Source of the DNA: Reichenbachiella faecimaris
GTDB taxonomy: Bacteria; Bacteroidota; Bacteroidia; Cytophagales; Cyclobacteriaceae
Assembly (NCBI RefSeq): GCF_900176375.1
Contig: NZ_FWYF01000001.1
Coordinates: 806,001 to 870,000, forward strand
Direction: 5' to 3'
DNA: 64,000 nucleotides
The translations under genes and the position numbers were made by a program. Below are positions 2,952 through 10,645 of this stretch, in pieces; position 1 is the first letter of the stretch; the number at the start of each line of letters is the position of its first letter. Under the pieces are notes generated by a model, which searched no databases, was not told the DNA's origin, and saw only the letters and a program-made list of their open reading frames with translations.

Positions 2952-3947
2952 ATGAAAAAAATATTACTCTTTTTGTTTTTTCCTGCGCTCACTTTGGCAC
3001 AGGATTTACATCCAGTGAGTTTTGCGCCAGGCTGCTGTAGTGAACGAACTGGCATTCCTATCTATACCTATAACCCTGATGAGTCAGGTGAAATGATGCA
3101 GGTCTATGTGGCTAATAAATATTCGGAAAAGTCCATTTTTTATAATGGCAAATACGACCCATGGAAAGATTCAGAATACAAAGATTCAGAACTTTATAAT
3201 CAGAGATATATTGTGCCACCTGGTACTCTCCCAATAGCTAAAGGTAAATTCCTAGACCAGACTGAAGTAGCCAATATCCATTTTGAGGAGTTCTTGTTCT
3301 TTATGGTCAGAGACTCTGGTAGGTATAAGGACAGAACTTACATACCCAAGCAGGAAAATAAATATGTGCTAAACTATTACAAAAACTCAGAATTTTCTTT
3401 TTTCCCTGTACTAGCTGTGTCATTTGAAACTGCAGAAACGTATTGTAAATGGCGTGCAGAACAGTTGAATGTTGGTCTGAAAGAAATGCTGATGGACGAG
3501 CCCAATAAATACAAATTCATTGGCAGACTCCCAACGAAAGAAGAATGGCTGGTTGCAGCAGGTTCTCCTATTGACGAAATTAGAATTGCTCCCCACGAAG
3601 TGACAAAAAAGGGCAGTCAATTTCTTGAAGAAGATATCATCAAAAAAAGGTTTGCAACAGAATCAATGCTTCTCAAGGCATCTTTTATCAGTTATAATGT
3701 AAATCTGAAGTACGAAAATCAAGGCATCCCAATTGAAATGCCTCAATACATCTATAGTTTCGAGCCAAATAAGAGAGGTTTTTACAACCTTTATGGCAAT
3801 GTAAAAGAGCTAGTTGCTGAAGGATACTCCATTGGAGGCAGCTATCTGACTTCAAATACGGAAGAAGCTCTCTTCGAAGAAGATTATACACAGTCATATA
3901 AAACTGATGTGGGCTTCAGATGCCTCGTGGAAGTAGCAAAAAGATAA
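2952..3947 (+). CDS. Secreted FGE/SUMF1-fold protein, paralogue 2
   Basis: 331 aa with signal peptide MKKILLFLFFPALTLAQ. It aligns along its whole length with the preceding gene: ANKYSEKSIFYNGKYDPWK against ANEYSEQSIFYDGYFDAWK, QRYIVPP, TEVANIH, GRLPTKEEWLVAAG, YGNVKELVAEGYSIGGSY and TDVGFRC. It also lacks the two FGE catalytic cysteines. It carries an extra Cys pair near the mature N-terminus (GCCSE) that the first copy does not have. There are 17 nt between the genes, so they form a tandem duplication and probable operon. A role in the cell envelope, by analogy with gliding proteins GldJ/GldK, is inference only. Confidence 0.8.
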   Translation: MKKILLFLFFPALTLAQDLHPVSFAPGCCSERTGIPIYTYNPDESGEMMQVYVANKYSEKSIFYNGKYDPWKDSEYKDSELYNQRYIVPPGTLPIAKGKFLDQTEVANIHFEEFLFFMVRDSGRYKDRTYIPKQENKYVLNYYKNSEFSFFPVLAVSFETAETYCKWRAEQLNVGLKEMLMDEPNKYKFIGRLPTKEEWLVAAGSPIDEIRIAPHEVTKKGSQFLEEDIIKKRFATESMLLKASFISYNVNLKYENQGIPIEMPQYIYSFEPNKRGFYNLYGNVKELVAEGYSIGGSYLTSNTEEALFEEDYTQSYKTDVGFRCLVEVAKR

Positions 3948-6057: not shown

Positions 6058-7338
6058 TTAAAAGTTGATCGTGCTGATATAAGTAAATAGATCATTACAA
6101 TCGTATTGGTACTGATGCAGCCCATCATTACCAATCATGAACAAAACATCATCCAAAGGAATGACATCCAAAGCATGTATCTCTTTGTGATGGGCGGTCA
6201 AATTTTCTCCAATTTTCAATGGATCAGCCGCATTAAAGACCTTCAGTCCATATTCCCCTTCTGCGATAAATAAACAGTCTCCTCTGATGCCCAGACCATG
6301 CGGATTATCCATGTCATGCGAAATGACCAATTCAGGATTGCTCACGTCCGAAATATCAATGACATCCAATTGGTTAGTAAAAGTTTCGCACTCAGTCCCT
6401 GATCGAAGTGTTACGTAAGCCAAGTCATTTTGAACCACTACTGGATCACAGGTATTGATATGCTCATAAGTAGAAATAAATACTGGCTCGGCAGGATTTG
6501 AATTATCATAGATATGCATGCCAGATCGTGCGCCAAAAAACAGCTTGTCGCCATAGGGGAAAATGGTTTCTATTCCCCATCCCAAATCCACACTATTGCC
6601 TTCTATGGGGCTGTCTGTCACAGTAATATCAAATAGCTTAAGACGGTATTCATTGACGGTATACAGGAAATTATCTGTAATTGTGAACCGCGCCAAAGAC
6701 CCTCCTATTCCTGCTCCTGAACTGTTTCGTGCCAAATTTGATTCTGCACTAGCAAACACCAAGTCATCTGTATAATACATCCAGTCTTCATTATCACAAT
6801 CAATTTCTATTTCCTCTTGCACTTCTGTATAGGAGATGAGCATGCCGTCTGCTTCCGTGTAATAGTAATAAGCGTCAAAAACACCTTCAATTCTATTGAC
6901 CTCAGTAATATTGGTTTTGTCACTGATGTCCAATACCACCAAATCAGTATAGTTATCAGCATATAAGAAATTGCCTTTAGCAGCTAAATCCTTATTCCCT
7001 GGCAATACCACAAATCCAATTTCAACAGGATTTGACCTGTCCCTGTTATCTATGACATGTATCCCTTGATCTATCTCATTGATAAACAAATACTCATCCT
7101 TGTAGTAGATTTTTCCAGGATTCTCTATCAGCTGTGGAGCTGCAAACTCTGCATCCTTCACCACTTCCGACCTTGGGACAAAAACTGGTTCGTAATAAGT
7201 GATCATCTCCGTATCACACGCTTTGTCGTCACAACTCCCCAGAATGAAAAGCATGAGTAAATACAATATACCTGAAGCAATAAGCCTACTTAGGGCTTTT
7301 AGACTATTAGTCGTCATTCGATTTGTACGCATGTTCAT
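6058..7338 (-). CDS. LVIVD-repeat lipoprotein
   Basis: 426 aa. A lipobox (LFILGSC, Cys near residue 35) follows a hydrophobic segment, so this is a predicted lipoprotein. The rest consists of beta-propeller-like repeats with strings such as GIHVIDNRDRSNPVEIG, LVVLDISDKTNI, LDVIDISDVSNPELV and GLKVFNAADPLKI, matching the LVIVD repeat family. No catalytic motif. It is the third gene of the sigma factor / beta-barrel operon, only 5 nt from the barrel gene stop/start junction. The start may instead be Met3 or Met8, which would shorten an unusually long n-region. Its function is unknown; surface display or a scaffold role is a guess. Confidence 0.85.
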   Translation of the reverse strand: MNMRTNRMTTNSLKALSRLIASGILYLLMLFILGSCDDKACDTEMITYYEPVFVPRSEVVKDAEFAAPQLIENPGKIYYKDEYLFINEIDQGIHVIDNRDRSNPVEIGFVVLPGNKDLAAKGNFLYADNYTDLVVLDISDKTNITEVNRIEGVFDAYYYYTEADGMLISYTEVQEEIEIDCDNEDWMYYTDDLVFASAESNLARNSSGAGIGGSLARFTITDNFLYTVNEYRLKLFDITVTDSPIEGNSVDLGWGIETIFPYGDKLFFGARSGMHIYDNSNPAEPVFISTYEHINTCDPVVVQNDLAYVTLRSGTECETFTNQLDVIDISDVSNPELVISHDMDNPHGLGIRGDCLFIAEGEYGLKVFNAADPLKIGENLTAHHKEIHALDVIPLDDVLFMIGNDGLHQYQYDCNDLFTYISTINF

Positions 7339-7343
7339 TTGGT

Positions 7344-8711
7344 TTAGAAATTATATCTGAATCCTATGGCTATTCCCAGGTTTTTGGGTTTTGCTTTATC
7401 CGTATGGTTTGCATTGGTAAATTCTGTCAATGCCTGATTGTAGTTAGGCTCAAGTAAAAGCTGATAATGACGTTTGAATATGTATCCGAATTCGACGCTG
7501 GTCAGGAAATTGAAATAAACGCTTTCATAACTGCCTGAAGTACTAAAGTCGTTATTCAAATTCTGAGCATCACTTTCTGACACCAGTTTTGAATCGACCA
7601 AAATATTACTGGATAATCCTGTATTGAGTGTAATATTGAACTTGTTATCCAACAGTACATAACCAGCTTTGATTGGTATGGTCAGATACTGATATTCATT
7701 AGCAAGCTGAACCTGTTGGCCTTCATATCTCAAATTTCCATCAGACAGGGCGCTCTCCAGATTACTGTCATTTCTCTCATTAGTCAATGCATAAGTGTTG
7801 TCCTGCTGATCAGAAACCAGCTGACTAGAGCTAGACCCAGTATTAAAAGCACTGTAGTGCAACCCACTGCTTATAACAATACGGTTGGCAAACTTTTTAC
7901 CCAAATTCAGACCGCCTGCAACAGACTGGCCACTAGCATAAACAGGATTGGCCGTTTGGCTACGAACAAAACTATCATTGGAAATTCCCTCCTGACTCGC
8001 AAAAGCCATGTCCCCTCCTGAACTCTTGCCAAACCCAGGATCAAATGAGCCAGTAGAAAAGCTCACTCCTGCCCATAGTGGACTCACTACTTTGCTAGGT
8101 GCAATGGTCTCCCATGTTCTTGCCACACCAAACAAATGTTCTGCTTCCCAAGGCTCTATTGCAGATGCCAGTTCAACTGACTTAGCTGACAGGGCATTAA
8201 ACACCGTCTGATGGGTTGCTGCATATCTGCTCAGGGATTTAACTTGTTTAGTGCCAGTTGAAGGAATAAATGCTGGTTCTGTTTGTGTCAACACTGGGGT
8301 ACTTATTCTTTTAGCAGAAGCATTTACCAAAGTAGGCTGTACGTTTTCAATTGCCTGATCTAATTCTTTCAACTCTACCTTATCTTCTTCCTCCAAGATT
8401 AAGGCTTTTGAGGAAGAAAAAGCGTTTTCCTCTAGTGATGGCCTGGAAACAGATCTATCTTCATTCTTAGCTAAATCAGATGGAATCTCTGAGGTGTCGT
8501 TCATCCAGAAAAAAGCTCCTCCAAGCGTAATCAAAAACAAACAAGCAGCAGCAACCCAACGATAAAAATCTGCTTGTTTTTTATAAACCAGGGCTTGCTC
8601 ATTGGCGAGGTGGCCATCTATCGCCACCCAAACTTGCTCTGGCGGAGTCACTTCAGCATTGGCTAAAGACTGGCTCCACTGTTCCTCAAATGTCGAATTA
8701 GCCTTTTCCAT
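7344..8711 (-). CDS. Trans-envelope protein: cytoplasmic/one-TM N-terminus fused to outer-membrane beta-barrel (putative anti-sigma)
   Basis: 455 aa. Residues 1-68 are soluble and begin with FEEQWSQSLANAEVTPPEQVW, like the N-termini of proteins encoded next to ECF sigma factors. One TM helix lies at about 70-90 (WVAAACLFLITLGGAFFW). Residues 90-200 are a low-complexity, Ser/Glu/Lys-rich linker. From about 205 to the end there are amphipathic strands ending in GIAIGFRYNF, typical of the Bacteroidota outer-membrane beta-barrel domain (PF13568-like). The start overlaps the 3' end of the sigma gene by 14 nt, so translation is probably coupled. The anti-sigma role is inferred from position and topology; no zinc anti-sigma motif is visible. 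Confidence 0.78.
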   Translation of the reverse strand: MEKANSTFEEQWSQSLANAEVTPPEQVWVAIDGHLANEQALVYKKQADFYRWVAAACLFLITLGGAFFWMNDTSEIPSDLAKNEDRSVSRPSLEENAFSSSKALILEEEDKVELKELDQAIENVQPTLVNASAKRISTPVLTQTEPAFIPSTGTKQVKSLSRYAATHQTVFNALSAKSVELASAIEPWEAEHLFGVARTWETIAPSKVVSPLWAGVSFSTGSFDPGFGKSSGGDMAFASQEGISNDSFVRSQTANPVYASGQSVAGGLNLGKKFANRIVISSGLHYSAFNTGSSSSQLVSDQQDNTYALTNERNDSNLESALSDGNLRYEGQQVQLANEYQYLTIPIKAGYVLLDNKFNITLNTGLSSNILVDSKLVSESDAQNLNNDFSTSGSYESVYFNFLTSVEFGYIFKRHYQLLLEPNYNQALTEFTNANHTDKAKPKNLGIAIGFRYNF

Positions 8712-9246
8712 AATTCTTCTTATTTTCCTTCATTCGCTCTCTTAGCAAATATTTTGCTCTAGAATACTGTGATTTTGAGGTACCTACTGATACACCTAGC
8801 ATCTCAGCTATCTCCTGATGCTTATAACCCTCTATGGCATACAGGTTAAAAATAACCTGACTACTGCCCGGCAAAGCCTGCACCATGGCCATCAATTCGT
8901 TCATGGTATAGTCAGAGACTTCTTGCTGTTGTCCCTGAGACTCTTTCAGATCATCTACATCCACCATTGGATACAAATACAGCTTACCTCTCTGTGAGTT
9001 AAGTGCCGTGTTGATCACAATTCGCTTGATCCAAAACACTAAAGGGGCATCTCCCTTATAGTTTTTTATTTGTTTGAAAACTTTGATAAACGACTCTTGC
9101 AACACATCCTCAGCTTCCTGCTGTGCTTTTGTATATCTGAGACAAATAGCAAACATGCTCGACGAAAATTGCCGATACAGCTGCTCTTGAGCTTTTCGAT
9201 CTCCTCGGACACAACCTTTGATAAGTTTATTTTCGTCTATCGCCAT
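8698..9246 (-). CDS. RNA polymerase ECF sigma factor (sigma-70 family)
   Basis: 182 aa. Region 2 is at about 20-90 (FAICLRYTKAQQEAEDVLQESFIKVFKQI), and the region 4 helix-turn-helix is at about 125-170 (EGYKHQEIAEMLGVSVGTSKSQYSRAKYLL). No C-terminal SnoaL or other extension. It overlaps the next gene (one-TM/beta-barrel protein) by 14 nt, the usual arrangement of an ECF sigma and its regulator. A candidate ECF-type promoter lies just upstream, suggesting autoregulation. The divergent neighbour is the type IX secretion plug gene. In Porphyromonas an ECF sigma (SigP) controls T9SS genes; a similar link here is inference. Confidence 0.92.
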   Translation of the reverse strand: MAIDENKLIKGCVRGDRKAQEQLYRQFSSSMFAICLRYTKAQQEAEDVLQESFIKVFKQIKNYKGDAPLVFWIKRIVINTALNSQRGKLYLYPMVDVDDLKESQGQQQEVSDYTMNELMAMVQALPGSSQVIFNLYAIEGYKHQEIAEMLGVSVGTSKSQYSRAKYLLRERMKENKKNYGKG

Positions 9247-9280
9247 TCTCCAGGAATGAAAATTTGTTTTGGTTTGCTGT

Positions 9281-9309
9281 TAAGACACGACCCCCATGCA
9301 AAGGGTTGG
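9281..9309 (-). promoter_or_regulatory. Candidate ECF-type promoter of the sigma factor operon
   Basis: On the minus strand, AACC (complement of 9304-9307) and GTCTTA (complement of 9281-9286) are separated by 17 nt. This resembles the AAC-rich -35 and GTC-type -10 elements of ECF-dependent promoters. It lies 35 nt upstream of the sigma gene start, as expected for an autoregulated ECF gene. Confidence 0.4.
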
Positions 9310-9376
9310 AATGAAAATTATTTTTATTCAAAATAATCCAATGTACTTTCGTTGATACCTTTATTGATTCCAGTTT

Positions 9377-10645
9377 ATGAAATTTAGCCTTAGCCTTTTC
9401 ATTGTTACCATTCTACTAGCAAAAATTAGCCCTATTTGCATCGCTCAGCAAAAAGAAATTGTATACGAGAACAAAAAATATGAGCCATTTGTCGGAGTGG
9501 TACAGCTCTATCCCATTACAAACAACCCTGATCAAGAACTAGGAGCACCCATTGTCCCCAGAAGCAAAGTGGAATCTCTGCTACTGCAATTTGATCTGCT
9601 ATTAGAAGAATACATTGATGTGCAGGCCAAAATCGTTCACTGTAATGCTGACTGGACTAAATCTGTACTGAACGATATCGAGTTTTTGTACGACTACAAC
9701 AGCTTTGATCTCCGCGACTTTGAGTATTCTATAAATGCCAAAACACTGTATGTCAACTATTGGTTTAAAATACCAAGAGTGAAAGTAACTGGCAATTACA
9801 TCATTCAAGTCTATCAAAATAATGACGAAGAAGATGTGCTATTCACAAGAAGGTATATTGTATTTGACCACAACGTCAGCATCCAACCCAACGTCAGAAT
9901 ATCAACTGGAGTCATGCAAAGAGACTTTAATCAGCAGATAGATTTTGATATTATTCATAGTAGAATCAAAGCCTCAAACCCTCGCACTGAATTCAAAATT
10001 GTGATCAGGCAAAATCAAAGATGGGACAATACCTTGGAGGGATTGCAACCTACTGCCATCAGAAGAGATAAGTCACTTCTTGAATACAGGCATTTCAATA
10101 TGGAAAACAATTTCAAAGGAGGTAATGAGTTCAGAATGGCCGATTTGAGAAGCTATAGCTATAGAGGAGCTTATGTTTCACACATCAACCCAGACGCAAA
10201 TCCTAGAGAAGCTACCGTCAATATGGGTAAAAGCCGCAAACAAGAGGCTTACTCACAGACGCAAGACAAAAATGGAGGATTCATCATTGCATCAACTGAA
10301 GCTATGGGAGATTACCTTGCTTGCGATTACCTACTGACCAAGTTTCAGGTAAAATCAGCCCCACTACCAGATCCTGTATATGTGCTAGGTGGCTTCAATG
10401 ATTACCAAAAAGATGATAAAAGTTTATTGAGATACAATACTGAAACGCAAGTCTACAGTTCTAAGGTACTGCTGAAGCAAGGATTGTATGACTACATCTA
10501 TTGGGTAGATGGTGATGATCCCTATGATTTACAAGGTTCTTTTTATCAGACTGAAAACAATTATGACATCATTGTTTATCACAAATCATTTAGCGATTTG
10601 GCGGATAAAGTAGTAGGGTATTATTCATTCCGAACCAAATTTTGA
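9377..10645 (+). CDS. Type IX secretion system plug protein (DUF5103)
   Basis: 422 aa with signal peptide ending at CIAQQ (about residue 24). Seen: the N-terminal plug-domain hallmarks GVVQLYPITNNPDQELGAPIV, LLLQFDLL, KIVHCNADW, FLYDYNSFDLRDFEYSINAKTLYVNYWF (in parts) and GNYIIQVYQNNDEEDVLFTRRYIVFD. In the type IX secretion system the plug protein closes the SprA translocon on the periplasmic side. A C-terminal E-set-like region (PVYVLGGFNDY, GLYDYIYW) follows, as in the family. The gene is divergent from the ECF sigma gene and its last 21 nt overlap the convergent hydroxylase gene. Confidence 0.88.
   Translation: MKFSLSLFIVTILLAKISPICIAQQKEIVYENKKYEPFVGVVQLYPITNNPDQELGAPIVPRSKVESLLLQFDLLLEEYIDVQAKIVHCNADWTKSVLNDIEFLYDYNSFDLRDFEYSINAKTLYVNYWFKIPRVKVTGNYIIQVYQNNDEEDVLFTRRYIVFDHNVSIQPNVRISTGVMQRDFNQQIDFDIIHSRIKASNPRTEFKIVIRQNQRWDNTLEGLQPTAIRRDKSLLEYRHFNMENNFKGGNEFRMADLRSYSYRGAYVSHINPDANPREATVNMGKSRKQEAYSQTQDKNGGFIIASTEAMGDYLACDYLLTKFQVKSAPLPDPVYVLGGFNDYQKDDKSLLRYNTETQVYSSKVLLKQGLYDYIYWVDGDDPYDLQGSFYQTENNYDIIVYHKSFSDLADKVVGYYSFRTKF

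Follow-up and report, generated by a model that had tools for sequence, protein, structure and literature searches.

A predicted Dma/Reo-like sigma and anti-sigma/barrel operon with a putative lipoprotein regulon in Reichenbachiella faecimaris

Introduction

Among the anti-sigma factors described in Bacteroidales, those of the Dma and Reo kind join a cytoplasmic regulator and a barrel in a single chain. Dma2 is composed of an N-terminal anti-sigma domain, a transmembrane (TM) segment, a disordered tether and a C-terminal barrel, and Das1 raises the NigD1 lipoprotein in Bacteroides thetaiotaomicron (PMC13088901). The Reo proteins of Phocaeicola vulgatus and Bacteroides fragilis are anti-sigmas with a barrel that extend from the cytoplasm to the surface; the EcfO-Reo regulon includes three nigD surface lipoproteins, and Reo responds by induction to BcpT and bacteroidetocin A, two toxins that damage the envelope (PMC9308784, PMC13114119). 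The role of the Dma and Reo proteins as anti-sigmas was established by genetics (PMC13088901, PMC9308784). So far as the literature that we surveyed shows, these systems have been studied in gut Bacteroidales only.

Here we describe an operon of Reichenbachiella faecimaris, a member of the Cytophagales, which probably encodes a stress switch of the Dma/Reo kind, running from the outer membrane to the cytoplasm and having lipoproteins as its regulon. It lies in a window of 64,000 nt (contig NZ_FWYF01000001.1, positions 806,001 to 870,000), which is the whole stretch of DNA analysed and to which the coordinates below refer unless a locus is named. This Cytophagales version combines a strongly conserved promoter with a small predicted lipoprotein regulon that has a NigD-like member, and the NigD link, if true, extends across orders. 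It offers a compact, testable regulon and a model from outside the gut, and a reading in terms of lipoproteins and outer-membrane stress replaces the tempting one in terms of the type IX secretion system (T9SS).

Results

The operon and its divergent neighbour

The first gene of the operon (8698..9246, minus strand) encodes an ECF sigma factor of 182 aa, which matches the general ECF models of Pfam (Sigma70_r2 and r4_2) and NCBIfam (TIGR02937) above their cut-offs. It overlaps by 14 nt (8698-8711) the gene for a 455-aa protein (7344..8711, minus strand), a predicted dual-membrane-spanning anti-sigma/barrel protein resembling Dma and Reo according to AlphaFold2, fold matches and family alignments. 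After a gap of 5 nt follows the third gene (6058..7338, minus strand), encoding a lipoprotein with LVIVD repeats (Pfam LVIVD), whose lipobox LGSC is succeeded by acidic residues (DDKACD). On the other strand, the gene for a T9SS plug protein (9377..10645, plus strand) diverges from the operon. The initial annotation had given the divergent plug gene and the 14-nt overlap at coordinates that proved exact, and the identity of the plug is now backed by NCBIfam NF052315 (E 8.8e-95, 318 bits). The LVIVD and plug neighbours were not described in any of the literature searched. Elsewhere in the window, two stretches (2335-2877 and 3348-3866) match GldK below the cut-off (E about 1e-12) and are probably formylglycine-enzyme-type domains.

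Architecture of the 455-aa protein

The initial annotation had proposed a chain crossing the envelope, with a cytoplasmic N-terminus, one TM helix, a linker and a barrel, and this design is borne out, as a prediction, by AlphaFold2 (run on alignment A3, with 33 sequences) and by the fold matches. The model places helices at residues 7-17 and 25-72, the longer of which contains the TM segment (about 52-72, with a hydropathy peak starting at residue 52), so that residues 1-45 make up the predicted cytoplasmic part. The linker (73-207) is modelled as disordered at 73-205, with pLDDT mostly below 50, and its 135 residues include 17 S, 16 E and 16 A, in agreement with its earlier description as long and Ser/Glu-rich. 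The C-terminal part had likewise been expected to be a barrel, and eight strands are indeed predicted with confidence at 212-454 (in-strand pLDDT mostly 90-98). Residues 212-455, ending in ...GFRYNF, correspond to 7344..8078 (minus strand) and form a predicted outer-membrane barrel of the OmpA/OmpW type; with VIA-align, residues 208-455 resemble the solved 8-stranded barrels of OprF (Z 19.4), OmpA (16.7) and OmpW (16.6). Sequence searches were less informative: the Pfam OMP_b-brl_2 match lies below the cut-off, no NCBIfam family matched the protein, and PDB sequence searches with this protein and with the NigD-like protein described below returned nothing useful.

Residues 1-73 (8493..8711, minus strand) comprise the TM helix and a candidate sigma-binding segment, which the AlphaFold2 helices and a conserved motif, FExxW..AF..AE..P..VW..I...L, point to. 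This motif is conserved across the homologues of alignments A1 and A3 (30 and 33, respectively), with W28 invariant and F8, E9, P23 and L35 present in at least 90% of the sequences in one or both sets.

The protein shows the features by which Dma proteins are described, namely adjacency to an ECF sigma gene, an N-terminal domain with one TM segment, a long disordered tether and a C-terminal barrel. Since this four-part layout equals the Dma description, we file it under the Dma/Reo kind, an assignment made by layout, in which the pair is set beside the studied proteins through their descriptions. The likeness holds for both Dma1-Das1 and Dma2-Das2, as it does for the cytoplasm-to-surface design of EcfO-Reo, here predicted. 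In hhalign comparisons of profile A3 with two unstudied Bacteroidales pairs, one aligned over the N-terminus (E 1.3e-6) and the other over the barrel (E 1e-16). Unlike the Dma loci, however, the neighbours here are an LVIVD lipoprotein and a T9SS plug, and, in contrast to the EcfO-Reo hosts, the bearer is a member of the Cytophagales and not a gut anaerobe.

Promoter and predicted regulon

The ECF-type promoter that had been proposed in front of the sigma gene is present as AACC-N17-GTC at 9284..9311 (minus strand), where the window holds an exact match to the predicted promoter TTCCAACC-N15-GTGTC, with its first motif base 65 nt before the ATG of the sigma gene. Its AAC and GTC blocks occur at constant spacing (AACC-N17-GTC) in 30 of the 32 related loci. 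The motif is directional and points towards sigma, which is predicted to regulate itself through its own promoter. In 59 genomes the exact motif matches 47 times and the reversed pattern 5 times; every exact match falls inside the family of the window, with none in 22 genomes of other families. Fifteen of the 47 lie upstream of sigma and the other 32 elsewhere.

The lipoprotein targets of the motif can be read from these 32 non-sigma sites. Under a strict lipobox rule, a lipoprotein start lies 20-150 nt downstream at 17 of them, compared with 30 of 407 nearby genes (7%) under a comparable rule (binomial p 1e-11, from the strict count alone). By eye, lipoprotein or LVIVD genes are found at 24/32 sites, seven beyond the strict 17, and the remaining 8/32 have no lipoprotein close by. 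LVIVD and FKBP lipoproteins recur as targets across the 59 genomes, and the LVIVD gene of relatives bears the motif itself, either when unlinked from the sigma operon or as an internal promoter. Most target lipoproteins carry acidic residues shortly after the cysteine, as reported for the surface-export signal of Bacteroidetes. The predicted targets of sigma are lipoproteins, mostly with surface-export-type signals, and not the neighbouring T9SS genes.

In R. faecimaris itself, the motif precedes the operon, a 171-aa lipoprotein (exact match), and, with one mismatch each, an FKBP lipoprotein and a 161-aa lipoprotein. These three intergenic sites outside the operon, one exact and two with one mismatch, have a lipoprotein start 21-63 nt away and were kept; one-mismatch matches are mostly chance, and sites within coding regions were dropped. 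The FKBP lipoprotein matches the GldI and BamJ models below their cut-offs. The 161-aa lipoprotein, whose start lies 53 nt after its motif, resembles NigD1/NigD2 (NF051862, E 3.6e-5) and NigD_C (E 0.022) in matches that fall short of the cut-offs, and recalls the Dma1-Das1 system, where the raised protein is NigD1. The FKBP and LVIVD members set the predicted regulon apart from those of Dma-Das.

Relatives and plug synteny

A single-sequence search matched 33 of 59 relatives, and the order from sigma to barrel-protein gene is retained in most relatives. The divergent plug stands beside the pair in 21 of the 32 related loci with sigma, including all 8 members of the genus, and start-to-start distances between plug and sigma in the plug-bearing loci are mostly 65-205 nt. 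Among 80 named loci, collected by scanning genomes with sigma alignment A2, 21 have the plug adjacent (for example, Ekhidna, Chryseolinea and Roseivirga). It is absent beside the pair in Flexithrix, Spirosomataceae, Runella, Hymenobacter and other loci, and, among the genomes sampled outside the family, those that have both plug and barrel-protein matches hold them at separate sites. The plug pairing is real and conserved but lineage-limited, because other Cytophagales have the pair without plug and the genomes sampled outside the family keep the two apart. The expected conservation of the divergent pair stands for the genus and for most related loci, and fails in many relatives. The LVIVD gene lies near the pair in 14/32 related loci and was not found near it in 18/32; it accompanies the pair beyond the plug-bearing lineage, Spirosomataceae included.

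Discussion

Under the reading that we favour, the 455-aa protein would use the cytoplasmic helices at its N-terminus to keep the ECF sigma at the inner membrane, while the TM helix and the disordered tether would connect these helices to the 8-stranded barrel in the outer membrane. A disturbance of barrel assembly or of the outer membrane might then alter or cut the tether or the N-terminus and free the sigma, which would transcribe its own operon and a few lipoproteins, mostly with acidic surface-export-type signals. In this genome the regulon would include the LVIVD, the FKBP (GldI/BamJ-like) and the NigD-like lipoproteins, and one more. We infer the signal and the release step with the Bacteroidales systems as model, and the binding of sigma and the surface exposure of the lipoproteins are proposed in the same conditional manner. 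This stress-switch reading does not account for the conserved adjacency of the plug. A wider scheme, in which that adjacency is functional, the barrel senses an outer-membrane state linked to the T9SS or to lipoprotein export, and one chain reports this traffic to sigma with surface lipoproteins as output, seems doubtful to us.

ECF control of T9SS genes has been reported in Porphyromonas gingivalis, where SigP, governed by the two-component system PorXY, targets T9SS promoters (PMC4800418), and it is suspected, with the SM6 motif, in Flavobacterium psychrophilum (PMC9723704); the earlier proposal of T9SS state as a candidate signal was therefore reasonable. As with SigP-PorXY, an ECF sigma is discussed here in connection with T9SS genes, and a barrel that reads T9SS status (e.g., occupancy of the translocon or of the plug), with sigma adjusting T9SS genes in the manner of SigP, would agree with these precedents and with the divergent plug found so often among related and named loci and throughout the genus. 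However, unlike SigP, the system here has a predicted fused barrel anti-sigma, and the motif is missing from the T9SS genes tested. In this genome, no site with three or fewer mismatches precedes sprA or the genes of the porV and gldK families, although so strict a motif may overlook divergent targets, including T9SS genes; on the plug strand the best match has 5 mismatches, and the promoter points towards sigma. Moreover, the motif stands before lipoprotein genes, and many relatives have the pair without plug. Neither T9SS state as the signal nor control of T9SS genes by this sigma is supported. A T9SS regulon was rejected as the main reading, and we regard a T9SS-status sensor as quite improbable, with the plug as a conserved neighbour predicted to lie outside the regulon.

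The lipoprotein targets with acidic residues after the cysteine would also suit a barrel that monitors surface-lipoprotein export, in which the LVIVD or the FKBP protein occupies the barrel or helps it to fold and a shortage of it frees sigma by feedback. This is unlikely, even though the LVIVD gene is kept with the pair more widely than the plug and bears the motif even when unlinked, and the FKBP relatives (below cut-offs) include GldI and the BAM-associated BamJ: stress-sigma regulons often contain lipoproteins that are not the signal, and more than half of the related loci showed no LVIVD gene near the pair. Finally, since many unrelated small barrels look like this one, the 455-aa protein could be imagined as an OmpA-like barrel of the ordinary sort, anchored by its N-terminus and co-transcribed with sigma, but not binding it. 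We hold this to be very improbable, given the conserved N-terminal motif, the conserved operon order after sigma and the genetic evidence on the published Dma and Reo proteins (PMC13088901, PMC9308784). The same genome, moreover, encodes a second ECF sigma (G000:C7:621500-626000, near 623,500) followed by a 251-aa anti-sigma-like protein whose N-terminus is like that of the 455-aa protein and which has no barrel. A separate secreted or outer-membrane-type protein adjoins it, and in this locus the design of the 455-aa protein seems to be divided between two proteins.

Variation among other loci

At one locus (L039, genome G009; barrel-protein start at 8155, minus strand), the N-terminal motif occurs twice in tandem, as AEQAPGPQVWDNI... 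and AEVAPSADVWDKV..., which suggests a putative duplication of the sigma-binding segment. At two further loci (L075 and L109), from two genera, an uncharacterised lipoprotein family with the signature DYIxFGxFYGxCLGExCI bears the exact motif. In Spirosomataceae, the two loci that were read (Arundinibacter, L167, 8152-9384; Larkinella, L215, 8285-9538) have a serpin-like lipoprotein that separates the barrel anti-sigma from the LVIVD lipoprotein, an arrangement that hints at a role in surface protection.
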